Of a DNA stretch of 64,000 nucleotides, positions 43,301-58,530 are shown one piece after another. The translations under genes and the position numbers were made by a program. The DNA comes from a candidate division WOR-1 bacterium RIFOXYB2_FULL_45_9. GTDB lineage: Bacteria > Margulisbacteria > WOR-1 > O2-12-FULL-45-9 > XYB2-FULL-48-7. The stretch is from positions 1,055,277-1,119,276 of the forward strand of contig MEUD01000001.1 of the NCBI GenBank assembly GCA_001771575.1, given 5' to 3'. The notes below the pieces were generated by a model. That model worked only from the letters and a program-made list of their open reading frames with translations, had not been told where the DNA came from and searched no databases. The first letter of the stretch is position 1. The number at the start of each line of letters is the position of its first letter.

Positions 43301-43762
43301 TTATTGCCGGGCGATAAACAGACCGGCGATCCGCTCAATAGCCGCCCCCACCGGTCGGCTCACCCCCTCACCCAACCCGGCATCGGCCGGCTGAACCCCC
43401 AATAACACGACCTTCAATCCGTGAAGCGTTTGCTTAAGATATTCGGCAAAAGTTTTCAACGATAAATTGTGGGTGGAAAAACTGTTTAAACTAATTTCGT
43501 CCGGACGAAACAAAGCGATCGTTCCCGGCTCGGCGCCAAAATCCGCCGCGTCAATTATCAACAACAGATCGGGCCTTAACCTGGCGATCCGGCCCAGGTG
43601 GTTTTCCGGAGTTGTTCCAGCATCGAGGAGCGGGTATTTGGCAAAGCCCCGATCGGTTAACGCTTTTATGACCAACGGGCCAAGAGCATCGTCTCGCTTT
43701 AGCCAATTGCCGACCCCCATGATCACCGTCCGCTCGACAAGCAGTCCCGCTAGCTCTACCAC
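43301..43762 (-). CDS. [NiFe]-hydrogenase maturation protease (HycI/HyaD family)
   Basis: Up to 153 residues; cuts the C-terminal tail of the hydrogenase large subunit after nickel insertion. Motifs: GVGNWLKRDDALG, IIDAADFG and STHNLSL. The given GTG (43762) overlaps the preceding Fe-S gene by 7 bp; a second GTG at 43726 fits the usual family N-terminus as well. Note that the large subunit at 48166 continues about 38 residues past its last Cys, which would be the cleaved tail or a non-cleaved extension. Confidence 0.88.
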   Translation of the reverse strand: MVELAGLLVERTVIMGVGNWLKRDDALGPLVIKALTDRGFAKYPLLDAGTTPENHLGRIARLRPDLLLIIDAADFGAEPGTIALFRPDEISLNSFSTHNLSLKTFAEYLKQTLHGLKVVLLGVQPADAGLGEGVSRPVGAAIERIAGLFIARQ

Positions 43763-44361
43763 TGTTCGTTAACGATCATTTCCCGGCGGCAAGTTGGGCA
43801 AAGAAGCCGCAGATGCCCTCCCCTTTGGTGAGGAGTATTTTCCGGACGGGAAGAATATAGTTTTAGCTCCGCCCCCCTGGCCATCAGCAAGGTCGGGTTG
43901 GCGTAAAGCAGGTGCCCGACCTTTTTGGCCAGGAAACGGAGCTGGTCCTCCGGTGCCAGGACCCCGCCGCAATGTTCGCAGATAACCAACTTTTTAACCG
44001 ACCTGGTCGTCGCCTGAAACCGATCATAAGTTGCCAGATCGTATTCGGCGGTCAACTTGATCCCTTTTTCGGTAATGCAGGATTTTTCGCACTGCTGGCA
44101 GTAAACACATTGGTCCTGATGGTGGACCAGGGTCCTGGTCTTCGCCTTAAGATCGTCGATGATCTCAATCGCCCTGGCCGGACATACTTCGGAGCAGGCG
44201 CCACAGCCGACGCAATCTTTTTCATAAAATTGCGGTTTACCGCGAAACCCAGGCGGAACCTTGGTCGGAGTAAAGGGATAGCGGTTAGTGTACGGGCCAA
44301 AGATCAGCGCCCGGACCGCCTCACGCAGGATCCTAAATTGGAATAGCCCCGGGACCCTCAT
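43756..44361 (-). CDS. NuoI/HycF-like hydrogenase subunit with two [4Fe-4S] clusters
   Basis: 201 residues: two ferredoxin motifs (CVGCGACSEVCP and CVYCQQCEKSC) in the first 115 residues, as in NuoI, MbhN and HycF. After that comes a C-terminal extension with paired Cys (CEHC and CPTC) resembling a zinc ribbon, as in some HycF-type proteins. It would pass electrons toward the hydrogenase small subunit. It starts at the stop of the preceding antiporter-like gene. Confidence 0.88.
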   Translation of the reverse strand: MRVPGLFQFRILREAVRALIFGPYTNRYPFTPTKVPPGFRGKPQFYEKDCVGCGACSEVCPARAIEIIDDLKAKTRTLVHHQDQCVYCQQCEKSCITEKGIKLTAEYDLATYDRFQATTRSVKKLVICEHCGGVLAPEDQLRFLAKKVGHLLYANPTLLMARGAELKLYSSRPENTPHQRGGHLRLLCPTCRREMIVNEQW

Positions 44362-45839
44362 TAATTCCCTCCCATTAGTTTTCCGTATCCGGTCCCGTTA
44401 AAGACCGAAACGACCGCCGGATTAAGCAGGTATTGACTGATAAACGGGACAAATAGCCCAACCGCAAAACAGCACCCGGCCAAAATAACGATCGGTAAAG
44501 CGATAAGCCAAGGCGTTCTTTCATTTACCTCGCCGTTCGGCCGGCCAAAGATCGCTCCGGTAAGGAAGATCAAATACGAAGCCAGAGTTAAGATACTGCC
44601 GATCGCAATCACCATGGCCAAAAAAAGGTTGCCGGTCTGCGCCGCCGCGACGATTACGAACATTTTGCTCCAAAACCCATTAAACGGGGGGAGACCGGAG
44701 ATCGCCAATGAGCCGACGATCGAAGAGGCCGAAACGACCGGAAGCCGGAAGAACAACCCCCCCATTTTTCTAATGTCGCGCGTTCCGGTCGCCCGATAAA
44801 TCGCCCCCGCGTTGAAAAACATCATTGGCTTGATCAGGGCATGGTTGAACGAATGGAAGATCCCTCCCATAATTCCAAGCGGCGAACCAAGTGAAAGCCC
44901 GGCGACAATGATCCCGATCTGCGAAATGCTTGAGTAGGCCATCAAACGTTTTATATCGTTTTGCCCGATGGAAAGAAGCCCTCCCAAAATAATGGTCACC
45001 CCGCTTAAAACCATTAAGACCAACGAAAGCTGACCGGTCATGCCGAAAACATTATATAAGATCCTGATCAGCGCGTAGACCCCAAGAGTTTTAATGATAA
45101 CGCCCGAAAGGAGTGCCGAGATCGGGCTGGGAGCGGAGGCGTGAGTGTCCGGCAGCCAGGCGTGGAAAGGGACCAGCGCCGCCTTCATCCCGAACCCTGC
45201 CAAAAACAAGACCAGGATGGCGGCTTTAACGGCGGAGGCATCGGCGGGAAAAGACTGGGAGACCTTCGCCATGTCATAGGTCCCGGTCGTCGCGTATACC
45301 AGGCCGATACCGATCAGGATAAAAAGAGAGGCCGTTTCACCAAGGATCAAATATTTGAACGCCGCTTCGATCTCGGCCCGGCGATTGCCAAAGGCGACCA
45401 GAGCGTAAGCGGACAAAGCGGCGATCTCCAAGAAAATAAACAGGGTAAAAAAGTCCCCGGTCAAGATCACGCCGTTAATGCCGGTCACCAGCAGGAGGAG
45501 GAGGGCGTAATAGCCGGTCCGGTTGGTGTATTTTCTCATGTACGCGACCGAATACAGAGCGACCAGCCAGGCGACAAAATTAGCGACCAATATATGCAAA
45601 TGGCTTAATCCGTCAAGAATTAGGTGGCTCCCTCCCGGCGGCAGCCAGCCGCTAAGATCATAGATCATCAGCGTATTAAACGGTCGAAAAAAATACAAAC
45701 CAACCGCGGCGGCAAAAAGGGCGGCGGCAACCAGGTTTGTCAAAAGTTCCGCTCCAGGTTTCTTGAGCCAAAAAAAGGCGCCCGCCAAACAAGCGGCAAA
45801 AAGGGGAAGGACGATAAAAAGCGGCAAAAGAAGGGTCAT
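44361..45839 (-). CDS. NuoN/MrpD-like ion-translocating membrane subunit
   Basis: A 492-residue antiporter-like protein with about 14 TM segments. Key charged residues of the pump are present: the TM5 Glu in FIFLEIAALSAY, the TM7 Lys in GMKAALVPFHAWLPD and the discontinuous-helix region SISQIG. It is the complete one of the two antiporter-like subunits in the operon. It overlaps its neighbours on both sides by 1-4 bp. Confidence 0.9.
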   Translation of the reverse strand: MTLLLPLFIVLPLFAACLAGAFFWLKKPGAELLTNLVAAALFAAAVGLYFFRPFNTLMIYDLSGWLPPGGSHLILDGLSHLHILVANFVAWLVALYSVAYMRKYTNRTGYYALLLLLVTGINGVILTGDFFTLFIFLEIAALSAYALVAFGNRRAEIEAAFKYLILGETASLFILIGIGLVYATTGTYDMAKVSQSFPADASAVKAAILVLFLAGFGMKAALVPFHAWLPDTHASAPSPISALLSGVIIKTLGVYALIRILYNVFGMTGQLSLVLMVLSGVTIILGGLLSIGQNDIKRLMAYSSISQIGIIVAGLSLGSPLGIMGGIFHSFNHALIKPMMFFNAGAIYRATGTRDIRKMGGLFFRLPVVSASSIVGSLAISGLPPFNGFWSKMFVIVAAAQTGNLFLAMVIAIGSILTLASYLIFLTGAIFGRPNGEVNERTPWLIALPIVILAGCCFAVGLFVPFISQYLLNPAVVSVFNGTGYGKLMGGN

Positions 45840-46099
45840 CCTTTTAGCTCCTTTAGCTCATCCGCGTCCAGCGTGCCGAACGATTCCTGGACCCTAATTA
45901 TGATCGCCGCCGCGATCAGGGTCGCGGAAAGAACGATCAAGGCCGTTCCCCACTTTCGGTTGCCGATCAACACCAGAAAAGAATCGACCGCGAACTCCAT
46001 GATCAAGACGCTGATCACGATTTTGTAAATATGGCGCTTGACCATCACTCCGTATAGTCCGATCATGAACAGGCCAAAACAACCCAAATAACTAATCAT
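45836..46099 (-). CDS. NuoK/MrpC-like small membrane subunit
   Basis: 87 residues, three TM helices, with an in-membrane acidic pair (VLIMEFAVDSFLVLIG) as in MrpC/MbhG/NuoK. This subunit typically lies between the hydrogenase membrane arm and antiporter-like proteins. It overlaps both neighbours by a few bases. Confidence 0.82.
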   Translation of the reverse strand: MISYLGCFGLFMIGLYGVMVKRHIYKIVISVLIMEFAVDSFLVLIGNRKWGTALIVLSATLIAAAIIIRVQESFGTLDADELKELKG

Positions 46100-46551
46100 T
46101 ATCTTTTATCCTTGTGTTTTCTCGCTTTAAATAAAGAAGAAATCGCGACAGCGGCAACGCAGACAACGATAAGCATCCCGACAACGTCAAAGGTCCTAAG
46201 CGTTTCGGTATATTTGACCTGGAGCGGGTCCGGCAAAGCGGCCAGAGCGGGAAAAAAGGCGGTTCCGGCAAACCCGGCGAAGGCCAGCGCCGCCAAATAG
46301 TTCCAAACCGAACTTCGCGGCTGATCGTCCCTGACTATTTTTTGCCGTTTCTGGACCAGCAGTAAAACGTAAACGATCGCGGAAACGACCGCCAGCTGGA
46401 AAGCGGCAAAAAAGTACGATTCAAAAGTTAGAAAGGCCAAAGCAAGACAGGCGCCGACCCCGCCTAAGGCGTAAGTCGAAAGCTTAAGGTCTTTTGCTTC
46501 TACCGCCGCGGCGGCGCAGATCACCGCGACAAAAATAATTCCTTCAAGCAT
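46099..46551 (-). CDS. MbhD-MbhE / MrpA C-terminus-like membrane subunit
   Basis: 150 residues with about five TM helices. The first half (GGVGACLALAFLTFESYFFA) resembles the DUF4040/MbhD unit; the second (TLRTFDVVGMLIVVCVAAVA) matches the YRxFDTxGE-type stretch of MbhE and MrpA C-termini. It therefore looks like a fused MbhD-MbhE; a NuoJ relation is the alternative. It would join the hydrogenase module to the ion-pumping module. Confidence 0.65.
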   Translation of the reverse strand: MLEGIIFVAVICAAAAVEAKDLKLSTYALGGVGACLALAFLTFESYFFAAFQLAVVSAIVYVLLLVQKRQKIVRDDQPRSSVWNYLAALAFAGFAGTAFFPALAALPDPLQVKYTETLRTFDVVGMLIVVCVAAVAISSLFKARKHKDKR

Positions 46552-46566: not shown

Positions 46567-48162
46567 TTACTTCAAAATGATCGCTACCAACGCGATCCCG
46601 GCCAGCATCCAGGCCAAATAATTTTTTACCGATCCATTATGGAAGCAGCAAACCAAACCTGACAGCCAGGTTGCCGGTCTGGCGGTCAGCTCGTAGAGGT
46701 TAAATATTTTTCCGATCAGGTACCCCTCTTTCAAAGGCTCGGTTTCTTTGATTGTGTTATAAAACTCCACTCCGGAAATCCTGGTTTCCGCCTCGCTTAG
46801 CTTCTCTCCCCCAATGTAGGGCTCTTTGGTGACGGCCTTGCCGACCCCCCCCAGCCAGTAGAAGAAGAGCCCAAGGACCAGCCCGGCGGCGATCAAAACT
46901 GTCGCCGTCTCTGAGCTCCAAAGGCCGGTAAGAGAGATCGTTGGTATCGCCGGTAGGATCATCAGCTTTAGCGGGAAAGAAGCAAAGACACCAAATAGAA
47001 CACAGATAAAGGCCGCCACCCCCAGAGGCAGCAGCATCCCCCATGGGGCTTCGGCCACTTCGCTTCGGTCATAATTTCCCGGAGCCAAGAAAACCGCGTG
47101 AATAACCTTGATAAAGCTGGCCAGGGTCAAGGCGCTCCCAAACATCGCCGTTCCCAGCCAGAGGAGTCCCCATCCCCCCAGATCAAGCAGACCAAGATAG
47201 ATCAGCCATTTCGAGGCAAAACCATTGAGCGGCGGGATCCCCGAGATCGAAAGCGCTCCGATCAGAGAAAAGCTGAAGGTCCAGGGAAGGGCTTTTGCCA
47301 ATCCTCCCAATTTCTTCAGGTCATCAGTTCCGGTCCGCCGCTCAACGATCCCAGCGGCCAAAAAGAGCAGGGATTTATATAAGGCATTGTTGATCAAATG
47401 AAATATCCCGCCGGCTACGGCCACCGGAATACCGCTCCCAACGCCCAGGATCATGTAGCCGACTTGAGAGATCGCATGATAGGAGAGGAGTTTTTTTAAT
47501 TTATGCTGGACCAGCGCGGCCAGGACGCCGAACATAAGCGTCGCCGCGCCGATCGTCATTAAGATTATTGAAACGATCGAGTTTGGCACGATCACGTAGA
47601 CATCAAGGCAGAGGCGGGCAAGCAAATATATCCCGATCAGCTTGTCGAGAGAGGCCGGCAGGAAGGCAAGGATCGCCGGCGGGGTATCGTCCGCGGCGGC
47701 CGGGACCCAAAAGTGGACCGGCAGTGCGCCGACTTTGGCCAAAATGCCGATCAACAGCAAGAAAAAAGAAGCGATCGCCGGCCAGCTTGTCAGCCCCACC
47801 TTGACCGCGCCAATGGTCGGGGTGGCGGTCAGCGCCGCCAGCAGTCCGATGCCGCAAAGCATCAGAGCGTCGGAGCCGCCGACCAAGAGCAAGGTCTTGC
47901 GGGCCGCTTCTCCTCCCCGTTCCGCGTCGATGCCGATCAACAAATAAAGCAAGACCCCCAGCCCCCCCCAATAAAAGATCAGCAAAATAAAGTCGGTCGC
48001 GAAGAAAAAACCGGCCGCCAAACCGAGCGTCATCAGGATATAGGCATAATACTCCACCCGACGCCGCCCGCCGCCGCCATCGGCAAGGGAATAGACGCAA
48101 ACCAAAATGGTCAACAAGACCGATATGGCAAAAAAAACACCACCGAGAAAATTAAACTGCAC
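46567..48162 (-). CDS. NuoL/MrpA-D-like membrane subunit, N-terminally short and lacking TM5 Glu
   Basis: A 531-residue antiporter-like protein. TM7-8 features remain (LAKVGALPVHFWVPA, LLSYHAISQVG), but it begins at the equivalent of TM3, so TM1-2 are missing, and no upstream start is available since the hydrogenase large subunit ends 4 bp before. The WE pair of TM5 is replaced by W65-G66 in LIFYWGGLGVLLYL. A long C-terminal extension (about 430-531) with an amphipathic stretch and a last TM resembles the NuoL lateral helix. It may be a structural or altered pump. Confidence 0.87.
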   Translation of the reverse strand: MQFNFLGGVFFAISVLLTILVCVYSLADGGGGRRRVEYYAYILMTLGLAAGFFFATDFILLIFYWGGLGVLLYLLIGIDAERGGEAARKTLLLVGGSDALMLCGIGLLAALTATPTIGAVKVGLTSWPAIASFFLLLIGILAKVGALPVHFWVPAAADDTPPAILAFLPASLDKLIGIYLLARLCLDVYVIVPNSIVSIILMTIGAATLMFGVLAALVQHKLKKLLSYHAISQVGYMILGVGSGIPVAVAGGIFHLINNALYKSLLFLAAGIVERRTGTDDLKKLGGLAKALPWTFSFSLIGALSISGIPPLNGFASKWLIYLGLLDLGGWGLLWLGTAMFGSALTLASFIKVIHAVFLAPGNYDRSEVAEAPWGMLLPLGVAAFICVLFGVFASFPLKLMILPAIPTISLTGLWSSETATVLIAAGLVLGLFFYWLGGVGKAVTKEPYIGGEKLSEAETRISGVEFYNTIKETEPLKEGYLIGKIFNLYELTARPATWLSGLVCCFHNGSVKNYLAWMLAGIALVAIILK

Positions 48163-48165
48163 TAT

Positions 48166-49353
48166 TTAGCTCCTAATTTTTCGCCTGATCTCTTCCGTCC
48201 GTTCCTGGCTTAGTCTGACCAGCTCTTCGCCGGTCAATAAAGTTTTATTGTTCTGCGGGTCGATTGCCGCCATTCTTTCGGTACAGCAATAACAGGGATC
48301 GACCGCCGCGGTGATCAAGGCGGCGTCGGAGATCTTTTGGCCAATGACCGTTTTCTTAAAAGAAGGAACATTCATGAACGAAGGAGCCCGGATCTTGTGA
48401 CGCTCCGGATAGTTTGAACCGTTGGAGCGGCTGTAATGAAAAACTTCGCCGCGCGGCGCTTCATGCAGGCCGATCCCTTCGCCAATACCGATCTCCCTGA
48501 CCTCTGTTTCGATCGGACCGGCAGATAATTTTTTGAGCGACTGTCTGATGATCTTGACCGATTCGATTATCTCCAGCAATCTGACGACCGCCCGGGAATA
48601 GACATCCCCTTGCTCCAGGACGATCTTTTCGAATTCGACTTCCCGGTAATTGGCGTAGGGAAAGTCTTTGCGGTTATCGATCGCCAATCCCGATCCTCTG
48701 GCAACCGGACCAACGACCCCCAGATCGATCGCGTCCTGCTTTTTTAACGTTCCGATATTTTTGGTCCGGGCCTGGATGATCGGGTCTTCGCTAACCGACT
48801 TGGCCAGCATCGAGGTAAATTTTTCTACCTCGTCAATCGCTTTGAGCAGGCCCGGAACGTCGTCGTCTTTGATGTCCCGCCTGACCCCGCCAACCTTGAA
48901 CATATTATAATGATTACGGTTGCCGGAGATCGCCTCGAACATATCCAGGACCGGCTCCCGATATTTCCAGGCCCACATAAAGACGGTGTTGTAACCGATA
49001 AAATGGCCGGCCAGCCCGACCCATAACAGGTGGCTGTGGATCCGCTCCAGCTCGCCGATGATCATCCTGATGTATTTCGCCCGCTCCGGGACCTCTATTC
49101 CCGAAATATCCTCTACCGCTTGAGTAAAAGCGAAAGGATGGGAAGTGGAGCAAATACCGCAAATCCGCTCGACCAGAAAAACCCCCTGGTCATAGGTCTT
49201 GCTCTCCAAAAGCTTTTCCACTCCCCGGTGGTTGTAGCCGACCCTGACGTCGGCATCAATGACGGTTTCTCCTTCGACATAGAACTTAAAGAACTCCGGC
49301 TCCTCCAGGAGGGGGTGAAACGGCCCGATCGGGATAATATTCTCTTTAGCCAT
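48166..49353 (-). CDS. Group 4 [NiFe] hydrogenase large subunit (NuoD-like)
   Basis: A 395-residue catalytic subunit. L1 motif VERICGICSTSHP supplies C65 and C68; L2 motif DPCYCCTERM supplies C354 and C357, so all four NiFe ligands are present and it is a hydrogenase, not a NuoD. An extra Cys (C356) sits inside L2. ATG 49353, behind GGAGGGAG, is preferred to the frame start at 49467. Exact subgroup (4d-4g) cannot be decided without phylogeny. Confidence 0.95.
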   Translation of the reverse strand: MAKENIIPIGPFHPLLEEPEFFKFYVEGETVIDADVRVGYNHRGVEKLLESKTYDQGVFLVERICGICSTSHPFAFTQAVEDISGIEVPERAKYIRMIIGELERIHSHLLWVGLAGHFIGYNTVFMWAWKYREPVLDMFEAISGNRNHYNMFKVGGVRRDIKDDDVPGLLKAIDEVEKFTSMLAKSVSEDPIIQARTKNIGTLKKQDAIDLGVVGPVARGSGLAIDNRKDFPYANYREVEFEKIVLEQGDVYSRAVVRLLEIIESVKIIRQSLKKLSAGPIETEVREIGIGEGIGLHEAPRGEVFHYSRSNGSNYPERHKIRAPSFMNVPSFKKTVIGQKISDAALITAAVDPCYCCTERMAAIDPQNNKTLLTGEELVRLSQERTEEIRRKIRS

Positions 49354-49804
49354 TGGCTCCCTCCGGCAGTTCGTTCTCCGACTCAAAGGATTTTTTGCGG
49401 AGCGGATATTTTCCAGCAGGCCAATCGTCCGGTAATAAGAGCCGCTCCAGCCGCGGGTGGCCGACAAAGAAGAGCCCGAACATTTCGCCGATCTCCCGCT
49501 CGATCCAGTCGGCGGCGGGGATAATGTCGGTCAGCGACCCGATCTCAAGCTCCGGCTTATCAACGTGGACCCGAAGCGAAACGATCGCGCCGGCATCGTT
49601 TAGCGCCAAATGATATAAGAGTTCGACCCCGGAGCGCAGGTCGACCGCGGAAATGGTTGAGAGCCTCCCCCCCAGTTCGGCGCAAATAAATCCGGCGACG
49701 GCACGCAGGTCTTCTTTGGCGACCAAAACATAGGTCCGCCCGGCCGGCCGCTCCGTTATTTCCACCCGCGCGAACGCGTTTTTAATTTTTTCGCTGACGT
49801 TCAT
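49346..49804 (-). CDS. NuoC-like hydrogenase subunit (30-kDa subunit family)
   Basis: 152 residues of the complex I 30-kDa family, with the C-terminal hallmark DWIEREIGEMFGLFF and then HPRLERLLLPDDW. It lies between the small and large hydrogenase subunits and overlaps each by 4-8 bp. Structural partner of the large subunit. Confidence 0.92.
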   Translation of the reverse strand: MNVSEKIKNAFARVEITERPAGRTYVLVAKEDLRAVAGFICAELGGRLSTISAVDLRSGVELLYHLALNDAGAIVSLRVHVDKPELEIGSLTDIIPAADWIEREIGEMFGLFFVGHPRLERLLLPDDWPAGKYPLRKKSFESENELPEGANG

Positions 49805-50211
49805 TTATTTATCGCCTTCACGATACCGGCGATGATCGCCTCCGGTTTCGGCGGACAACCAGGCACATAGACATCGACCGGAATGATCTCGTCGACCGGC
49901 TTCACATAATTATAACTGTCCCGAAAGATATCCCCGGAACAAGCGCATACTCCGACCGCTACGACCAGTTTCGGCTTAGGGACCTGGTCATAGACCCGCC
50001 TAAATCTTTCCAGAGATTGGCGATTGACGATCCCGGCGACCAGGATCAGGTCAGCATGACGGGGAGAGCCGACCAGGGTGATCCCCAGCCGTTCAACGTC
50101 GTGCCTGGGGGTCAGCAGATCAAGGATCTCGATATCGCAATTGTTGCAGGCCGACGCCCCAAGATGGTAGACCCAGATCGATTTTTTTTGGCTCCACTTT
50201 AAAATGTTCAT
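49801..50211 (-). CDS. Group 4 [NiFe] hydrogenase small subunit (NuoB-like)
   Basis: A 136-residue NuoB-type protein binding the proximal [4Fe-4S] cluster next to the NiFe site: C22 and C25 (ACNNC), C89 (GVCACSG) and C119 (VPGCPPKPE). Short relative to NuoB, as usual for Ech/Mbh-type enzymes. Confidence 0.94.
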   Translation of the reverse strand: MNILKWSQKKSIWVYHLGASACNNCDIEILDLLTPRHDVERLGITLVGSPRHADLILVAGIVNRQSLERFRRVYDQVPKPKLVVAVGVCACSGDIFRDSYNYVKPVDEIIPVDVYVPGCPPKPEAIIAGIVKAINK

Positions 50212-50213
50212 TA

Positions 50214-51137
50214 TTACCAGCCGACGGCGGCCAGGACCAGGCTAAGCAAGGCAAAGATGGTCCAAGGCCCCCAAAAAAAACTGACCGCCTGATCGATCCG
50301 CAAGCGGGGAGCGGTATTTTTCACCAAAACCATGATCGTCAGGATAATAACATACTTGGCTAACCCGGCCAAAAGCGCGCTGATTGAAAACTGGATCCCT
50401 CCCCAGAAGAGGGTGATCAGCAGGGCCGGCAGGGTCCAGTAAAGCATCGATCTGGAGAGGCGGAAAATAGCCAGCGGCCCGCCTGAATATTCTAAAAGCG
50501 GCCCCGACATGATCTCCTGTTCAGCTTCGGCCGCGTCAAAAGGGACGCTCCCTAACTTTGCCAAACAGACGATCAGAACAACCATAAACGCGATAAAACC
50601 AGATAATGACAGGCCAAGCCAGCCGGCCGCCGCCTGGTAAGCGATAAAGTCACCGATCATAAAAGTCCTGACCTTGACCAGCAGGGCAAGCAATGCGATC
50701 AAAAAAGGAAGTTCATAAGCCAGGACCAGTTTCATCTCCCGGCTCGCCCCCAAAGCGGAAAGGGGGTTGCGGGAAGCCGAACCGGCCAAAACCAAAGCAA
50801 GGGAAGGGATCGCCAGCAGATAGATCACTACAATCAGGTCGCCGATAAAACCTTCGGAAATGTCCAGGTTAGACACCCCTAATATGGTTGAGGCGGCAAT
50901 GACCGATGAAAATGCTAATAGAGGGGCCAGAAGAAAGAGCCATCTCCCTCCTCCATCGGGAACAGCAACCTCTTTGCCGAACAATTTGATGATATCGGCC
51001 AGCGGCTGAAAAATCGGAGGTCCCTTGCGCCACTGCAGACGCGCCGAGAGCTTCCGGTCAAACCAATTGGCGAGCAAGCCAAAGACCAGGGGGACTAAAA
51101 AGCCCGGAACAAGAAACGCGTATAATAACCGGCTCAT
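50214..51137 (-). CDS. NuoH-like membrane subunit
   Basis: 307 residues, about eight TM helices. Conserved loops of the NuoH family are clear: KGPPIFQPLADIIKLFGKE and PFDAAEAEQEIMSGPLLEYSG. It anchors the hydrogenase arm and links the reaction to ion movement. It overlaps the Fe-S gene before it by 4 bp. Confidence 0.93.
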   Translation of the reverse strand: MSRLLYAFLVPGFLVPLVFGLLANWFDRKLSARLQWRKGPPIFQPLADIIKLFGKEVAVPDGGGRWLFLLAPLLAFSSVIAASTILGVSNLDISEGFIGDLIVVIYLLAIPSLALVLAGSASRNPLSALGASREMKLVLAYELPFLIALLALLVKVRTFMIGDFIAYQAAAGWLGLSLSGFIAFMVVLIVCLAKLGSVPFDAAEAEQEIMSGPLLEYSGGPLAIFRLSRSMLYWTLPALLITLFWGGIQFSISALLAGLAKYVIILTIMVLVKNTAPRLRIDQAVSFFWGPWTIFALLSLVLAAVGW

Positions 51138-51616
51138 CTTCTTCTCCCAATAAAATTCGACAGGATCCTGGTCGATTCCAGATTCTTTGTAACGTCAACG
51201 ACCTGCTCATCGACCTCTTCAAATGAAAGGGCGCCGGAAGTGCAGGTGGCGACGCACCGCGGGATCTCCCCTTCCGCCAATCGATCAAGGCAAAGATCGC
51301 ATTTCGGAACAATATGTTTAAAAAGATCGGGCTGGATCACCCCAAAAGGGCAGGCCAGTTCGCAAGAATGACAGCCGACGCATTTTATATGGCTCCGCAA
51401 GACCAGTCCCTCGGCGTTTTTTTTCATCGCATCGTTCGGACAAGCGGCGGCGCAAGCCGGCTGGTCGCAATGCAGACAATGGAGCGGCACGTTCGCCTCT
51501 CCCCGCGGGACCGCGTGTCCAAGTAAAGATTGCAAATGGTGACCGTAAGCACAAGCGGCGGCACAGCTACGACAGCCGCAGCAAAGATCCAGGTTCAAAT
51601 ATATCCTTTTAGCCAT
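51134..51616 (-). CDS. Four-cluster ferredoxin subunit (HycB/CooF/FdhB type)
   Basis: 160 residues with four Cys-rich motifs (CCGCRSCAAAC, CLHCDQPACAAAC, CVGCHSCELAC, CDLC...CVATC), enough for four [4Fe-4S] clusters. HycB-type proteins wire formate or CO dehydrogenases to group 4 hydrogenases. Here it lies between the FDH-like subunit and the membrane hydrogenase, the same position. Confidence 0.92.
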   Translation of the reverse strand: MAKRIYLNLDLCCGCRSCAAACAYGHHLQSLLGHAVPRGEANVPLHCLHCDQPACAAACPNDAMKKNAEGLVLRSHIKCVGCHSCELACPFGVIQPDLFKHIVPKCDLCLDRLAEGEIPRCVATCTSGALSFEEVDEQVVDVTKNLESTRILSNFIGRRR

Positions 51617-51619
51617 ATT

Positions 51620-53026
51620 TTATCTCTTGTTGTTTGCCCGGTACCAAAAAAAGTTGCTCGCCAATTCGTTGCCGGCAAAATTGGTCACATTCTCTACCTG
51701 ACAATCAGGCATGGGCTCAATCTTTGCGGCTTCATTCATGACCGTTTCCAGATCAAAAAGCTCTCCAGCCATTTTCACTGCTGTATCAGCCGCTTGATGG
51801 CGAGCCCCTTCAACATCAAGCTCAAATATCTCCGCGAGCCAGGCCGCAAGATCTCTCCCACCGGCCGCCGGGACAAGCGGCAAAGCATTTTCCCGCCGAT
51901 TTCCGGAAAAAATATACGATCCGGCCAACTCCAGGTGGCTCGCTTGAGGAAAACAGATCGCTTCTCTGCTCAACTTTGACTTGAAAAAGCGGCTTTTGAT
52001 CAATAACTTCGGAGCGACCGATTCCAGATCGGAGAGGTCTTCGCCCAGAAGGAAAAGCCCCTGGATCGCCCCCTGCTTTAACTTCTTGATCAGTTCAAAA
52101 TAACGGGCCCGGCCGGGGTGCCGGCCGTCAAATAAAGCATTCAAGCCGACAATGTTCCCCCCTTCATGAAAAGAGATCCATTTCTTGTTGGTCAAACCGG
52201 CAAGAATTCTGACAAAATAGATCAGCAGGTCGTTGCGCCTCCGGTTGGGGCTCGGCACCACGATCACCGTCCCCGGCTCCGGACCAAAAAGATCGGCCGC
52301 CGTCTCTTTCAAGGCGCTCATAGGCACACCTATCTTGTCGGTCAGCGCGGCAAGCTCCGCCTCATCGGCGCCGCTTAGCAGTTTTACCAGCGCGGCGGCA
52401 AAGAGAACCTCCATCCCTGACTTGAGAGTTATATGCCTGCTCGCGAACCAGGCGGCATGCGAACGATGAGGATCGACAACGATTATCCGGCTCCCTTTCT
52501 TTGCTTTTACCGCGTTGATCCGGCGGGAGAGAACGGGGGTCCTCGTTAAAATATCACCGATAATCAGCAGGCGATCGCTAGTCTCAATCTCCTCAAGGGT
52601 GGCTGGATGGTCTTCCGCCAGCCGCCAGGAGGCTCCAAGAGCGGCGTCATTATCGGCCAACCCGCCTCCCACGCAAAGATAGCGGGTCTTAAGTTTCTCC
52701 GCCAGCGCCGCCGCGATCGCCCCCTCTTCCAGGCTCATCAGGGGCGAAACAACGATCCCGATCGAGCCAGGATCGATCCCCTGAAGTTCGCGCCGTACCT
52801 TGGATGCCGCCTCTCCCCAGGAACCATCCTCTCCCCCCACGCTCGGAGAGGTCAACCGGCCGGGATGATTGAGTAATTCATAGTTATAATAACCGCGCGG
52901 ACAAAGCGCCCCTAAATTGACCGGATTGTTCCGGTCATAATCGATCGCGACCGCCTCCCGGCCCTCGACCCGGCAGGCCAGGCCGCAGCCAAGCGAACAA
53001 AATAGGCAAACCGATTTTTTCACCAT
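51620..53026 (-). CDS. Truncated FDH/NuoG-like molybdopterin oxidoreductase-family protein
   Basis: 468 residues. N-terminal [4Fe-4S] motif C7, C10, C14, C42 (CLFCSLGCGL, GALCPRG) and a molybdopterin-oxidoreductase fold (RTPVLSRRINAVKAKKGSRI, VVDPHRSHAAW). The segment that in formate dehydrogenases has the Mo/W-ligand Sec or Cys is short and has no comparable residue. The C-terminal dinucleotide-binding domain is missing, and the family is usually 650 or more residues. It probably relays electrons like NuoG. ATG 53026, overlapping the FAD subunit by 7 bp, is better than the frame start at 53113. Confidence 0.8.
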   Translation of the reverse strand: MVKKSVCLFCSLGCGLACRVEGREAVAIDYDRNNPVNLGALCPRGYYNYELLNHPGRLTSPSVGGEDGSWGEAASKVRRELQGIDPGSIGIVVSPLMSLEEGAIAAALAEKLKTRYLCVGGGLADNDAALGASWRLAEDHPATLEEIETSDRLLIIGDILTRTPVLSRRINAVKAKKGSRIIVVDPHRSHAAWFASRHITLKSGMEVLFAAALVKLLSGADEAELAALTDKIGVPMSALKETAADLFGPEPGTVIVVPSPNRRRNDLLIYFVRILAGLTNKKWISFHEGGNIVGLNALFDGRHPGRARYFELIKKLKQGAIQGLFLLGEDLSDLESVAPKLLIKSRFFKSKLSREAICFPQASHLELAGSYIFSGNRRENALPLVPAAGGRDLAAWLAEIFELDVEGARHQAADTAVKMAGELFDLETVMNEAAKIEPMPDCQVENVTNFAGNELASNFFWYRANNKR

Positions 53027-53835
53027 GGGTCGGGGATCTCCTTGACCTGTTCCCAGGTAAAGACCGGACCGTCGACACAGCACAAGTGCTTGCCCAAATT
53101 GCAATGGAAACATTTACCGATACCACAGCTCATGTTTTTTTCCATCGATAAATAAATATCCTTATCGCTAAAACCCAGGTCAAGGAGCTTTTTCACCGCG
53201 AACTTCATCATGATCGGCGGACCGCAAACAATGGCCGCCGCCGCTTCAGGGTTCACGTCCCCCGGGAGCATGATCTCCGTCACTACCCCGACCTTCCCCG
53301 GCCACTTCTCGTCCCCGCGATCGACCGTAACAACCAGGTTGGTTTTTTCCCTTTTTCCCCAGGTCGGCATTTCCTGTTTGAAAGGGAGGTCTTCCGGCGA
53401 GCGCGCCCCCAGCCGAAGCTCAATTTTGTTTAAACGCTCAAGCTCATGAAACAGGGCAAGAAGCAGAGCGCGCAAAGGGGCGATCCCCACTCCGCCACCG
53501 ATAATATACACGTCCTTGCCGTGATATTTGTCCAAAGGATAAGGGTGGCCAAAGGGACCGCGCAAGCCGACTGTTTCGCCGGATTTCAGTTCATGCAATC
53601 GGCCGGTCGCCTGCCCCGCTTTCATGACGGTAAATTCGATCATGTCGTTTTTTTTGGGATCTGAGGAGGGGGTGAACGGGGCTTCGCCGACCCCCGGAAT
53701 TGTCACCTGCATAAATTGGCCGGATAAAAAACCGATCTCCTTTTCCGGGGCGAGGACAAAAGTTTTGATCTGCGGCGTTTCCGCGATCACTTCTTTTATC
53801 TCCGCCCTGATCGGCTGATATGGGTTGCTTGTCAT
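53020..53835 (-). CDS. FAD/NAD(P)-binding [2Fe-2S] subunit (HydG/ShyC/AsrB-like)
   Basis: 271 residues of the ferredoxin-NADP reductase superfamily: FAD site (GETVGLRGPFGHPYPL), NAD(P) site (VYIIGGGVGIAPLRALL, VCGPPIMM) and C-terminal [2Fe-2S] Cys cluster (CGIGKCFHC then CC). Such subunits exchange electrons with NAD(P)H in sulfhydrogenases and anaerobic sulfite reductases. No sulfhydrogenase NiFe subunits follow; instead comes the FDH-like protein and a group 4 hydrogenase. Confidence 0.9.
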   Translation of the reverse strand: MTSNPYQPIRAEIKEVIAETPQIKTFVLAPEKEIGFLSGQFMQVTIPGVGEAPFTPSSDPKKNDMIEFTVMKAGQATGRLHELKSGETVGLRGPFGHPYPLDKYHGKDVYIIGGGVGIAPLRALLLALFHELERLNKIELRLGARSPEDLPFKQEMPTWGKREKTNLVVTVDRGDEKWPGKVGVVTEIMLPGDVNPEAAAAIVCGPPIMMKFAVKKLLDLGFSDKDIYLSMEKNMSCGIGKCFHCNLGKHLCCVDGPVFTWEQVKEIPDPW

Positions 53836-53846
53836 TTAGCCTGGCC

Positions 53847-54872
53847 TCACTTTTTTATTTCCCGGTCAAGAGCGGCAAAGATCTCCCGCATATCGATGTT
53901 GCCGGCACAGCCGTCGATACAGCGGCCGCACCCAACGCAGGTATAGCGGGAGAGCCGGTCAAAGGAATAATCAAATTTACAGTGATAGCGGTTTTGCAGT
54001 CGCTGGAAAAGCCTGGGGCGGGAATTACCCCCTCCCGCCACTTTTGCATACCCCGCTTTTAAACAGGCATCCCAGAGTTTGTGGCGCCTGTTTAAGCCGC
54101 TGGACGCCTCATCGACCAGCAAAAAGCAGGAGCAAGTTGGGCAAATAAAATTGCAGGCGCTGCACTCCACGCAATCCTTCGTTAGCCGGCGCCAAATATC
54201 GTTTTCCAGGTTAAGCTTATGGAGGAGGCTTAATTCTCCGGTAGAAAATCCCTGGTTCACCCGCTTGAGCTTTGCCTCGACCTTTTCCCGATTCTCCTTT
54301 TTAGCCGCCGCGGCCGGAGGAAGGACCCTGGCAAAAATATTCCGGTGGTCATCAATGATCTTTTTCCCTTTTTCGCTCCCCACTTCCACCACGTATCCGT
54401 TGGGAACGACCGCCAGGCTCAAGTCAAAGCAGGCGGTCGGATATGGCCCGCCGCCGACCAGCGAACAAAAACAACTGGCGCCGCAGTCGGTGCAATCGGC
54501 GCCGATCAGGACCGTTTTTTCCCGGCTCACCAAATAAAAGGGGTCCTGGTCTCCTTCGCCAAAAACACGGTCTAAAACATTTATCCCTTCCAGATCGCAG
54601 GCGCGCGCTCCCAAAAGAACAAGGGGACCGGCCGACAGATGGGTATCACCGTCAAAGTAGCGGGCGACCAGTTCGGTCGGTTTAAATAAATAAGCTTTGC
54701 ACGGTTCGACCGTTCGATAGCCGGTAAGGTCGATCCGGCCCAAACTATCGCCGTCAACGTCAAACCAATACTTCCGGCCAAACTCGCCGGCCGGAGCCGC
54801 GACACGCGACTTATCCATCAGATCACTGACCAGATAGTTGAAGTCTTTCGTGTTGATGAAATACTCGCTCAT
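53847..54872 (-). CDS. 4Fe-4S dicluster electron-transfer subunit (HydB/ShyB/AsrA-like)
   Basis: 341 residues. An N-terminal region with CTDCGASCFCSLVGGGP typical of HydB/AsrA, then two [4Fe-4S] motifs (CVECSACNFICPTC and CVGCGRCIDGC). It accepts electrons from the FAD subunit encoded 11 bp downstream. The hydB-hydG order matches cytosolic group 3b hydrogenase operons, but here it leads a group 4 locus. First gene of the operon, with a near-consensus promoter. Confidence 0.9.
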   Translation of the reverse strand: MSEYFINTKDFNYLVSDLMDKSRVAAPAGEFGRKYWFDVDGDSLGRIDLTGYRTVEPCKAYLFKPTELVARYFDGDTHLSAGPLVLLGARACDLEGINVLDRVFGEGDQDPFYLVSREKTVLIGADCTDCGASCFCSLVGGGPYPTACFDLSLAVVPNGYVVEVGSEKGKKIIDDHRNIFARVLPPAAAAKKENREKVEAKLKRVNQGFSTGELSLLHKLNLENDIWRRLTKDCVECSACNFICPTCSCFLLVDEASSGLNRRHKLWDACLKAGYAKVAGGGNSRPRLFQRLQNRYHCKFDYSFDRLSRYTCVGCGRCIDGCAGNIDMREIFAALDREIKK

Positions 54873-54885
54873 GTCGATATTTCCG

Positions 54886-54913
54886 ATTTTAACAAATGAG
54901 CCCCCCGTGTCAA
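54886..54913 (-). promoter_or_regulatory. Hydrogenase operon promoter
   Basis: Minus strand: TTGACA (54913-54908), 16-nt spacer ending TGT, TAAAAT (54891-54886), 13 nt before ATG 54872. It overlaps face to face with the divergent promoter at 54925. Confidence 0.8.
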
Positions 54914-55431: not shown

Positions 55432-58400
55432 ATGAACAAGCCCAAATACTCGATCTCCAAACAGAATGAATTCGTGATCGAGAACTATAACCAGGCTCCG
55501 ACTTTTTCGAGCTTTTTCCCCGGTATAGCTGGTATTTTTGGCTGTCCCATGTGGGTTTTTTATGCCAACCGGGGGCAGTGCATAACCTCCGCCGGGGTCC
55601 AGGATAAGAACGGCGCGATCATCGAGTTCCATGCCGCGAACAAGGCTTACCGGAACGCCCACCTGCAGGGTTTTAGGACCTTTATCAAGGTTGACGGCGA
55701 ATTTTACGAACCATTCTCCGAAACCTCCCCCTACCCGAGCGAACTAAGGATCAATCCTCACGACCTGAAGCTTGTCGAGGAAAATCCCGACCTCAAAATA
55801 AGGGTCGAGGTCCACTATTTCAATGTCCCGGACGAGCACTTTCCCGCTCTGGCCCGGCGGGTCAAGATCGTCAATCTCGGAAAAAAACCACGTCAGCTTG
55901 AGGTAATCGACGGCCTGCCGATCATCATCCCTTTTGGCTTTGAGGATTTCCTGCTCAAGAAAATGAGCCAAACGATCGAAGCCTGGTGCGTGGTAGAGAA
56001 CCTGGAGCAAGGGGCCCCCTTCTACAAGCTGAAGGTCCTCCCCTCCGACAGCTCCGAAACCAAACTACTGCGAAAAGGTAATTTCTATCTCCCGTTTTGC
56101 CGGGACGGCCAGCGGGTAGAGGTGGTCGTCGATCCGGCGATCGTTTTCGGCGAAAACACCAGCCTGGAGCGACCCGACAACTTCCTGGAAAAGACATTTA
56201 AAATTCCGCCAAAACAATTGACCGACGGATTTACTCCAGCCGCCTTCGCCCGCGCGAAGGTTACCCTGACCTGCGACTTTGAGATCTCTTCGATCATCGG
56301 GCAAATTGACAGCCTTGACCTGCTCAACAAAGACAGGCTCCGCCTGATGAGCCGGCAATATCTGGACGCGAAAGCGGACGCCAACCGGGACCTGATCAAC
56401 GGGATCAGCGATCTGATGGACATTAAGAGCGCGAGCCGGAGCTTTGATCTATATTCCCGATATACCTTCCTCGACAACGTTATGCGGGGGGGCCTGCCGG
56501 TCATGATCGGCGGCAAACCGATCTATCTCTATTTTAGAAAGCACGGCGACATGGAGCGGGACTATAACGACTTCCGTCTGATGCCGACCTATTTTTCCCA
56601 GGGGAACGGCAACTACCGCGACATCAACCAAAACCGCCGCAACGATCTTTTCTTCAGCCCGGAGATCGGCGCCGACAATATTTTCCGGTTCTTCAACCTG
56701 GTCCAGCTTGACGGGTTCAACCCGCTGGTCGTCCTGGGGAGCAAATACTTTATCGAATCATCCCATCTTGCCGAGGCACTGGCCAAAAAGCACCTCAAAA
56801 CCCCGACTAAAGAACAGATCGAAAAGATATCCCGGCCCTTTATCCTGGGAGAACTGCTGAAAGGTTTTGAGCATGAGGGAATAGACTATCAAACCTCCAG
56901 GGAAGATTTTGCCGCCGACCTCCTCAAAAGCGGAGAGGTCGAGGAAGGGGCGGTCCACGGCGAGGGTTATTGGATCGACCATCCTTTTTATAACACCGAC
57001 CTGCTGGAAAGCTTTGAAGCGGTCTACCCCGACCGGATCGGCGACGTCCTCTTCAAACAGAAGACCCTGACCTATTACGACAGCGACCATTTTGTCGTCC
57101 CGCGCAAGGAGAAATACAGGCTCTGCGGCGACAAGGTCCGCCAGTACGAGAGCGTGAGGCTCGACCTGGAAAAATCGGCGTCGATCAACCACCGGGCGTG
57201 GAGCAAGAACGCGGTCCGGGTCGATCACGGCAAAGGGAAGATCTATCACACCACGCTGGCGGCCAAACTCCTCTGCCTGATCGCCAACAAAGCGGCCTCT
57301 TTTGACGCCGAAGGGATCGGACTGGAAATGGAAGCGGACAAGCCCGACTGGTACGACGCCTTAAACGGCCTCCCGGGATTGTTTGGTTCTTCGCTCTCGG
57401 AAACGCTGGAGCTAAAAAGGCTTGCCGCCTATCTTCGCCGTCATTTAACGACGGAAGAGATCGCTCTGCCGGTCGAGGTCAAAGAATTTATCGACCGGCT
57501 TCTGCCGGTCCTCGCTGAAGGGGACTGCTTTAAATACTGGGAGAGCTCCGGCCAGCTCAAAGAAAACTACCGTCAAAAGATCAAGCCCGGCGTGAGCGGG
57601 CATGAAAGCTTAATCGAGCCTAAAGAAGCCGGAGACCTGCTCGATCTGGTCGTCGCCCGCTGCGACCAGGCGGTCCAAAAGGTCCTGGCCAAATACGGCA
57701 ACTACCACACCTATTTCATCAATGAGGTCAGCGCCTATGACACGACCGGCCAGAGCGAGATCAAGGTCCGGGAATTCCGCCAAACCCCGCTCCCGCTTTT
57801 TCTGGAAGGCTTCGTCCACGCCCTGAAAGTTGAAAAGGACCAAGGCATTTACCGGCGGGTCAAGGAGAGCCCCCTCTTCGACAAAAAACTTAAAATGTAC
57901 AGGGTCAACTCCCCGCTGACCGAGATGCCGGTCGAGATCGGCCGGACCAGGATCTTTACCCCCGGCTGGTTGGAAAACGAGTCGGTCTTTGTCCACATGG
58001 AATATAAGTACATGCTGGAATTGCTCAAAGCCGGACTGTACAAAGAATTTTTTGCCGACTTCAAAGAGGTCATGGTCCCTTTCATGGACCCGAAGGTCTA
58101 CAAGCGAAGCATCCTGGAAAACTCTTCCTTTATCGTCAGTAGCGCCCACCCCAACGTTAAGAACCACGGTCGGGGCTTTATCGCCCGCCTCTCCGGGGGA
58201 GCGGCCGAATTTATCGACATGTGGCTGATCATGACGACCGGGAAAAATATTTTCTCCCTCGATCCGGAAGGGAAGCTCCGCTTCCAGCTAAAACCGATCC
58301 TCCCCGCCTGGTTATTTAAGCGGCAAGCTTTAAGCTTTAAACTCTTTGGACAAATCGATGTCACCTATATCAATCATAAAGAGAAAGATTCTTTTGGCAA

Positions 58401-58530
58401 GCCCCCCATCTCATATAAACTTTTTTTCGACGGTCAAGAGATTGAGATCGACCAACCCTTTATCGCCGAACCGTATGCCTCAATGATCAGGGAGCGGAAG
58501 ATTGAAAAGATCGTGGCGCGCCTCTCATAG
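55432..58530 (+). CDS. Large GH94-like glycoside phosphorylase family protein
   Basis: 1032 residues, cytosolic (no signal). Resembles the cellobiose-phosphorylase superfamily (clan GH-Q): N-terminal beta domain (VFYANRGQCITSAGV), an (alpha/alpha)6 barrel with GNYRDINQNRRND around D397 where GH94 enzymes have the general-acid RDxxQD, and a C-terminal part with HPNVKNHGRGF. It is 250 residues longer than ordinary GH94 enzymes; GH149/GH161-type beta-1,3-glucan phosphorylases are of similar size and are an alternative. Substrate unknown. First gene of a glycoside cluster with its own leaderless promoter. Confidence 0.65.
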   Translation: MNKPKYSISKQNEFVIENYNQAPTFSSFFPGIAGIFGCPMWVFYANRGQCITSAGVQDKNGAIIEFHAANKAYRNAHLQGFRTFIKVDGEFYEPFSETSPYPSELRINPHDLKLVEENPDLKIRVEVHYFNVPDEHFPALARRVKIVNLGKKPRQLEVIDGLPIIIPFGFEDFLLKKMSQTIEAWCVVENLEQGAPFYKLKVLPSDSSETKLLRKGNFYLPFCRDGQRVEVVVDPAIVFGENTSLERPDNFLEKTFKIPPKQLTDGFTPAAFARAKVTLTCDFEISSIIGQIDSLDLLNKDRLRLMSRQYLDAKADANRDLINGISDLMDIKSASRSFDLYSRYTFLDNVMRGGLPVMIGGKPIYLYFRKHGDMERDYNDFRLMPTYFSQGNGNYRDINQNRRNDLFFSPEIGADNIFRFFNLVQLDGFNPLVVLGSKYFIESSHLAEALAKKHLKTPTKEQIEKISRPFILGELLKGFEHEGIDYQTSREDFAADLLKSGEVEEGAVHGEGYWIDHPFYNTDLLESFEAVYPDRIGDVLFKQKTLTYYDSDHFVVPRKEKYRLCGDKVRQYESVRLDLEKSASINHRAWSKNAVRVDHGKGKIYHTTLAAKLLCLIANKAASFDAEGIGLEMEADKPDWYDALNGLPGLFGSSLSETLELKRLAAYLRRHLTTEEIALPVEVKEFIDRLLPVLAEGDCFKYWESSGQLKENYRQKIKPGVSGHESLIEPKEAGDLLDLVVARCDQAVQKVLAKYGNYHTYFINEVSAYDTTGQSEIKVREFRQTPLPLFLEGFVHALKVEKDQGIYRRVKESPLFDKKLKMYRVNSPLTEMPVEIGRTRIFTPGWLENESVFVHMEYKYMLELLKAGLYKEFFADFKEVMVPFMDPKVYKRSILENSSFIVSSAHPNVKNHGRGFIARLSGGAAEFIDMWLIMTTGKNIFSLDPEGKLRFQLKPILPAWLFKRQALSFKLFGQIDVTYINHKEKDSFGKPPISYKLFFDGQEIEIDQPFIAEPYASMIRERKIEKIVARLS

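Follow-up and report, generated by a model that had tools for sequence, protein, structure and literature searches.

We found that the third gene of a formate-hydrogenlyase-type (FHL-type) group 4 [NiFe] hydrogenase operon in a WOR-1 bacterium encodes a formate dehydrogenase-like protein (hereafter FDHL), which is probably a catalytically dead, Mo/W-cofactor-free relative of FdhF that would act as a [4Fe-4S] relay in FdhF's place. The operon lies within the 64,000-nucleotide stretch of DNA analyzed here (the window), which belongs to a genome of 1.67 Mb in a single contig. At the sequence level, the Mo/W ligand, the residues of the pocket, and the greater part of domain IV are gone from FDHL; its cluster motif is kept, the operon is conserved, and the redox motifs of the partner proteins are intact. 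From this, we infer that the cofactor is absent from the protein, and likewise the order of subunit contacts, the flow of electrons via FDHL, NAD(P)H as the partner, and the coupling to ions.

The FDHL gene and its operon

The reading frame of FDHL extends exactly from an ATG at position 53026 to a stop at 51620 (Table 1). Its start lies in a 7-base overlap (ATGGTGA) with the stop of the preceding AsrB/HydG-like gene. Pfam searches matched the protein to Molybdop_Fe4S4 and Molybdopterin. The top NCBIfam models were those of the FDH alpha subunit (E = 2.8e-26), with a score of 92 bits that is far below the cut-off of 666; the NuoG model (E = 2.3e-19) was also far below its cut-off and matched only from position 215. 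A frameshift or an assembly fault was ruled out as the cause of the short length, because the nine WOR-1 homologues share the same end point and the HycB-like gene begins 4 bp past the stop. A pseudogene was ruled out by the open frame, the synteny in two phyla, and the invariant cluster Cys residues. A selenocysteine ligand was also ruled out, since there is no in-frame TGA; genuine TGA-containing FDHs do turn up at other loci (e.g., L019).

Table 1. Features of the hydrogenase operon, with positions in the window.
Feature	Position	Strand	Details
Sigma-70-like promoter, TTGACA-16-TAAAAT, 11/12, extended -10, strong, just before AsrA	54886..54913	-	consensus match only
AsrA/HydB-like, two [4Fe-4S] (Fer4_22), first operon gene	53847..54872	-	341 aa; ShyB 7e-52, HydB 3e-47, AsrA 1e-37, below curated cut-offs
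AsrB/HydG-like FAD/NAD(P)-binding, [2Fe-2S] motif	53020..53835	-	271 aa
FDHL, FDH-like subunit that retains the [4Fe-4S] site but not the Mo/W ligand or the MGD pocket; truncated in domain IV	51620..53026	-	468 aa
HycB/CooF-like, 17 Cys, motifs for four [4Fe-4S]	51134..51616	-	160 aa
NuoH/HycD membrane subunit	50214..51137	-	PF00146
NuoB/HycG small subunit	49801..50211	-	PF01058
NuoC (HycE N-terminal part)	49346..49804	-	PF00329
NiFe large subunit, HycE/NuoD type, both Ni-binding CxxC (RICGIC, DPCYCC)	48166..49353	-	
Antiporter-like NuoL/HyfB-type subunit	46567..48162	-	
MbhD-like small membrane subunit	46099..46551	-	PF13244 weak, below cut-off
NuoK/MrpC-like subunit	45836..46099	-	PF00420
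Second antiporter-like subunit, NuoM/N-like	44361..45839	-	PF00361
NuoI/HycF, two [4Fe-4S] and FHL-type C-terminal Cys quartet (CEHC...CPTC)	43756..44361	-	
HycI-type hydrogenase maturation protease	43301..43762	-	PF01750

The gene order AsrA-AsrB-FDHL-HycB-NuoH-NuoB-NuoC-NuoD-NuoL was found at all WOR-1 loci and, as far as the contigs reach, at the Chloroflexota loci. Of the components expected of an FHL, the operon has HycB, HycF with its Cys quartet, HycG, HycE with the NiFe ligands, HycD, an antiporter subunit, and HycI; the residue alignment revealed no active formate dehydrogenase subunit of FHL in this operon. Both Ni-binding CxxC motifs of the large subunit are conserved in all relatives checked. 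In E. coli, the C-terminal Cys quartet of HycF lies near the FdhF interface (PMC9474812). The putative HydB/HydG (AsrA/AsrB) module has FAD/NAD-binding domains, a [2Fe-2S] motif, and two [4Fe-4S] motifs; because both proteins score below the NCBIfam equivalog cut-offs, they are strictly neither HydB/G nor AsrA/B. FDHL is the fastest-changing and least conserved subunit of the cluster, with 31-59% identity to the window protein among WOR-1, compared with 66-88% for NuoB and 66-86% for HycB.

The end of the promoter-like site and the start codon of AsrA are ~14 bases apart, such that the transcript leader would be very short. Upstream of the operon, the opposite strand carries two large genes of carbohydrate-active appearance, whose products resemble a GH94-type phosphorylase (1032 aa; 55432-58530) and a GH42 beta-galactosidase (589 aa; 58552-60321). 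In most of the WOR-1 relatives, HycB and NuoH are separated by ~700 bp, which contain a gene for a TPR-repeat protein at the one locus where its identity was checked (L025:11120-11797). The window has no such gene, and its HycB and NuoH genes overlap.

Ligand, cofactor pocket, and domain IV

For the residue comparison, 12 FDHL proteins (nine from WOR-1 and three from Chloroflexota) were aligned to FdhF of E. coli, to NuoG, and to FDHs of this and related genomes. The control FDHs (n = 28) were picked by the presence of the ligand Cys and Lys44, and conserved columns were those with at least 90% identity in the catalytic FDHs. The first-pass annotation had described a complete N-terminal four-Cys motif and no Cys or Sec in the region of the Mo/W ligand, and both descriptions hold. 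The motif (C7-x2-C10-x3-C14-x27-C42) is invariant in 12/12, and the column of FdhF Sec140 contains A, S, K, E, N, or Q but Cys in 0/12. In the window protein, the residues corresponding to E. coli FdhF Sec140, His141, and Arg333 are Ala124, Asp125, and His287, respectively. His141 is replaced by Asp or Glu in all 12 proteins, and Arg333 was found in none of them; 27 of the 28 control FDHs also keep these two residues. Lys44, which lies between the cluster and the pterin in FDH, is replaced by Arg in every FDHL, as in NuoG. The alignment is gap-free from a conserved 'TNN' to the ligand column, which indicates that the ligand absence is not an alignment artefact. The Cys residues of the window protein are at positions 7, 10, 14, 18, 42, 118, 358, and 442; the non-motif Cys118 is not conserved.

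Among the FDH-conserved columns, C136-A137-R138, N159, T300-Q301-H302, R333-G334-Q335, V338-Q339, D343, Q428-D429, and R460 are lost in 12/12 FDHL proteins, and the structural-looking columns R61, P65, E115, G174, A212, G340, and G402 are kept in 12/12. We take the lost columns to belong to the MGD region, based on general knowledge of the family rather than a computed contact map. This wholesale loss of cofactor-region residues, combined with the retention of fold residues, suggests that the cofactor site was lost and the fold was not. Neither a conserved Cys ligand nor a complete bis-MGD pocket was found in the 12 proteins. The best conserved part of FDHL is the Fe4S4 domain (residues 1-60), of which the four Cys are invariant across two phyla.

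The predicted structure points to the same fold. An AlphaFold2 model of FDHL based on nine sequences has a mean pLDDT of 82.4 and a pTM of 0.85, with only the last 23 residues having pLDDT below 50. The nearest solved structures in Foldseek are M. hungatei FdhA, NfnABC, catalytic FDHs, NuoG, FwdB, and the Mo-free ElpA; the fold of domains I-III of Mo/W FDHs is present, with an E-value of 1e-22 to FdhA (7bkb_D).

The first-pass annotation had also stated that the C-terminal cofactor domain is lost. This is correct for most of domain IV, as the Pfam search gave no match to Molydop_binding (PF01568) in the window FDHL, but the first ~20 residues of the domain remain. In the alignment, the final ~20 residues of the window protein match the beginning of domain IV, and thus the domain is truncated rather than wholly absent. 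This conserved tail, ITHFGNNxLVxNFFWY in WOR-1, corresponds in the alignment to the initial strand and loop of domain IV, which read SIHFADGSITRNFGW in Chloroflexota FDHL and LFHYHSGNETRR in FDHs. No second gene in the genome supplies the missing domain, since PF01568 was found only inside a real, 907-aa FDH. This rules out, for this genome, an enzyme split in the manner of FwdB/FwdD, with domain IV encoded by another gene.

The Chloroflexota FDHL proteins are 587-599 aa long (from chosen starts) and keep domain IV (PF01568 at 3e-15 to 3e-11), with the ligand absent. These full-length forms are encoded within the same hydrogenase operon at L038:1548-3347, L065, and L066, one of which is labelled Dehalococcoidia. 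The simplest reading, for which the order is drawn from an unrooted tree, is that the ligand was lost first and that most of domain IV was lost later in WOR-1.

Relatives and comparison with known systems

Within our sample of relatives, six further genomes from this family and two from the wider class carry an FDHL orthologue. The named genomes with homologues carry the labels candidate division WOR-1, Saganbacteria, or Margulisiibacteriota, which places the organism of the window in the WOR-1/Saganbacteria lineage. Strong matches were also found in four of the 393 genomes of the Chloroflexota class that carries the operon. In a broader sample of 400 Chloroflexota genomes, the known member alone was recovered at E 1e-60, which indicates that the system is rare among the Chloroflexota sampled. 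Zixibacteria and Omnitrophica are two further groups named in a 2019 paper (PMC6349859). A search of viral contigs found no FDHL homologue. In the phylogenies, FDHL forms one clade with 100/100 support. The tree without long branches placed FDHL with the FDH side and united the NuoG-like sequences (76/96; p-AU of the alternative, 0.166), whereas the tree with long branches gave the opposite arrangement and united the catalytic FDHs (90/95). The loss may have been shared with NuoG or independent, since the alternative was not rejected.

A group 4 NiFe hydrogenase region with a subunit that was left unclassified has been described in Saganbacteria RX5A, for which the HMM result of the FDHL-type gene was formate dehydrogenase (Matheus Carnevali et al., 2019; PMC6349859). 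This region is from the same lineage and almost certainly represents the same system as the operon in the window. The passages on RX5A in that paper make no mention of the loss of the ligand, pocket, or domain IV, of a Mo-free identity, or of the Chloroflexota forms with domain IV (PMC6349859).

Several known systems resemble this operon in part. Similar to E. coli FHL (FdhF-HycBCDEFG), it encodes a four-cluster HycB, the HycF quartet, NuoB/C/D/H homologues, and HycI, with FDHL in the place of FdhF. The differences are that FDHL appears to be dead and lacks most of domain IV, that the operon also encodes a putative NAD(P)H module and additional antiporter-like subunits, and that HycE is split in two. 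NuoG/NDUFS1 likewise has an FDH-like domain in which a [4Fe-4S] site is present, the Mo ligand is missing, and Arg stands for Lys44, and it connects the NADH module with the NuoBCDHI core by its position. However, FDHL begins at the FDH Fe4S4 motif and does not have the N-terminal [2Fe-2S]/[4Fe-4S] domains of NuoG; also, its putative NAD(P)H module is of the HydBG type rather than NuoEF, and the complex is a hydrogenase rather than a quinone reductase. The formylmethanofuran dehydrogenase subunit FwdB has a similar length (~430 aa), the same fold (TMt 0.70-0.72), and no domain IV of its own. FwdB keeps the Cys ligand and receives domain IV from FwdD, whereas FDHL has neither the ligand nor a partner-supplied domain. 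StnC and NfnABC share an inactive FdhF-like domain inside an NAD(P)H electron-transfer complex; unlike FDHL, these are fused to GltD/NfnB-like domains and have flavin-bifurcating partners, and they lack both a hydrogenase and a membrane arm. In the Elp-Hdr complex of Methanothermobacter marburgensis, ElpA is a truncated FdhA homologue that lacks molybdopterin and belongs to an electron-donor arm (PMC12350162). FDHL would match such a relay in that the cluster is kept, the cofactor region is lost, and the gene is encoded with redox partners (Foldseek TMt FDHL vs. ElpA, 0.72-0.74). In contrast, ElpA is shorter (~340 aa) and serves a heterodisulfide reductase with F420H2, while FDHL belongs to a hydrogenase with a putative NAD(P)H module.

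The only other protein of this type in the genome is a complete FDH. It is encoded in an NAD-type cluster (L031:5264-17644; ~341-354 kb of contig C1) with NuoE-like and NuoF-like genes and a 907-aa FdhA that has the Cys ligand. Downstream of this cluster are mobA- and fdhD-like genes, a tungstate/molybdate-type ABC transporter, and a moeA-like gene (names from sequence reading). With a complete FDH and mobA-, moeA-, and fdhD-like genes nearby, the cofactor can presumably be made, such that its predicted absence would be specific to FDHL.

Proposed electron path and alternative explanations

We propose that electrons would pass from NAD(P)H via FAD to the [2Fe-2S] cluster of AsrB, on to the two [4Fe-4S] clusters of AsrA, and through the [4Fe-4S] cluster of FDHL to the four [4Fe-4S] clusters of HycB; these would then deliver them to the NiFe site through the two [4Fe-4S] clusters of HycF and the [4Fe-4S] cluster of NuoB. 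The AsrAB module would be a new point of electron entry from NAD(P)H, with FDHL supplying its cluster alone, and the path may be coupled to ion movement. Electron transfer from NAD(P)H to H2 is uphill at standard potentials, so the complex may evolve H2 at low H2 or with the help of an ion gradient, or may instead work as an H2-oxidising, ion-pumping NAD(P) reductase. The first-pass annotation had suggested an electron relay for a hydrogenase, and the embedding of FDHL between the NAD(P)H module and the HycB-type protein in a [NiFe] operon supports this role. In E. coli FHL, electrons pass from the FdhF cluster to HycB, HycF, HycG, and NiFe in steps of <14 A (PMC9474812). Because HycB and HycF keep FHL features, the FDHL cluster may well occupy the position from which FdhF delivers electrons to HycB. 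A direct precedent is ElpA, an FdhA homologue that was stripped of molybdopterin and is used in an electron-donor arm (PMC12350162).

The counter-precedent is StnC, in which the FdhF-like domain is inactive, the clusters C1 and C2 are off-path, and Cys-to-Ala variants disrupt assembly (PMC10482914). By analogy, FDHL could be a structural adaptor that docks AsrAB on HycB, with its cluster being a dead end or an assembly remnant and electrons bypassing FDHL between AsrA and HycB. The N7 cluster of NuoG in complex I, which superposes on the FdhF cluster, is also off-pathway (PMC9474812), and the low conservation of FDHL relative to the other subunits would fit a scaffold too. The strong conservation of the Fe4S4 domain and its four Cys across two phyla and the FHL features of HycB and HycF argue against a pure adaptor; weighing the precedents of ElpA and StnC, we consider the relay probable and the adaptor unlikely.

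Less likely still, at an improbable level, the enzyme could be ferredoxin-dependent like Mbh, such that ferredoxin would dock on HycB or FDHL and the exchange of AsrAB with NAD(P) would be a side branch. Ferredoxin dependence is hypothesized in the 2019 passages on this region (PMC6349859). The large subunit is closest to that of P. furiosus Mbh among solved structures (6cfw_L, 3e-88), slightly ahead of FHL HycE (4e-83), and the operon has several antiporter-like subunits, as in Mrp-linked enzymes. On the other hand, the operon opens with AsrA and AsrB behind the strong promoter-like site, and their place is kept in both phyla. Moreover, the genome contains no other evident partner for AsrA/AsrB: its only other NuoD-like protein is devoid of Ni ligands, and no AsrC or [FeFe] hydrogenase scores over cut-off. 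It is highly improbable that FDHL remains a Mo/W enzyme for another substrate, with a pterin in the remaining pocket and Mo without a protein ligand, given that T300/Q301/H302, R333/G334/Q335, Q339, D343, Q428, D429, and R460 are absent in 12/12 and that WOR-1 FDHL has neither most of domain IV nor a partner gene that supplies it, unlike FwdB with FwdD. Arsenite oxidase does hold Mo without a protein ligand, and Chloroflexota FDHL retains domain IV. The name given in the 2019 passages, molybdopterin-containing oxidoreductase (PMC6349859), also agrees with such an enzyme.

Mo-free FDH homologues are already known, namely, NuoG, ElpA, StnC, and NfnABC. The present analysis adds the assignment, from sequence comparisons, of this subunit as truncated and without the Mo/W ligand, its link to FHL, and its Chloroflexota relatives with domain IV. 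The relay reading would account for a subunit that was left unclassified in 2019. Tentatively, the whole complex may be an energy-converting NAD(P)H:H+ oxidoreductase that combines an FHL with a cofactor-less FdhF and a HydBG-type module, in parallel to a possible transition from an FHL-like hydrogenase with an FDH-like subunit to complex I. The origin of the dead FDH-like domain of complex I (NuoG) is debated. If true, the re-use of a cofactor-less FDH-like subunit beside an NAD(P)H module in a living hydrogenase would be a testable parallel to NuoG, for which a form with domain IV and a truncated form are both at hand. The stages would still be visible, with the ligand lost and domain IV kept in Chloroflexota and domain IV lost in WOR-1. 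Annotation of FDHL-type genes as formate dehydrogenase would lead to false prediction of formate metabolism in uncultured lineages.

Two further observations concern related proteins. A 561-aa NuoC/D-like protein without Ni-binding Cys is encoded elsewhere in this genome (L102; ~79 kb of C1) and is consistent with the Ehr-type (energy-converting hydrogenase-related) complexes reported in the lineage. Additional Chloroflexota FDH/NuoG-like proteins without the Cys ligand and Lys44 (e.g., 'SARLHNAV' and 'GGSLYDFA') were found at L068, L073, L089, and L092, and these are possibly other Mo-free relays.
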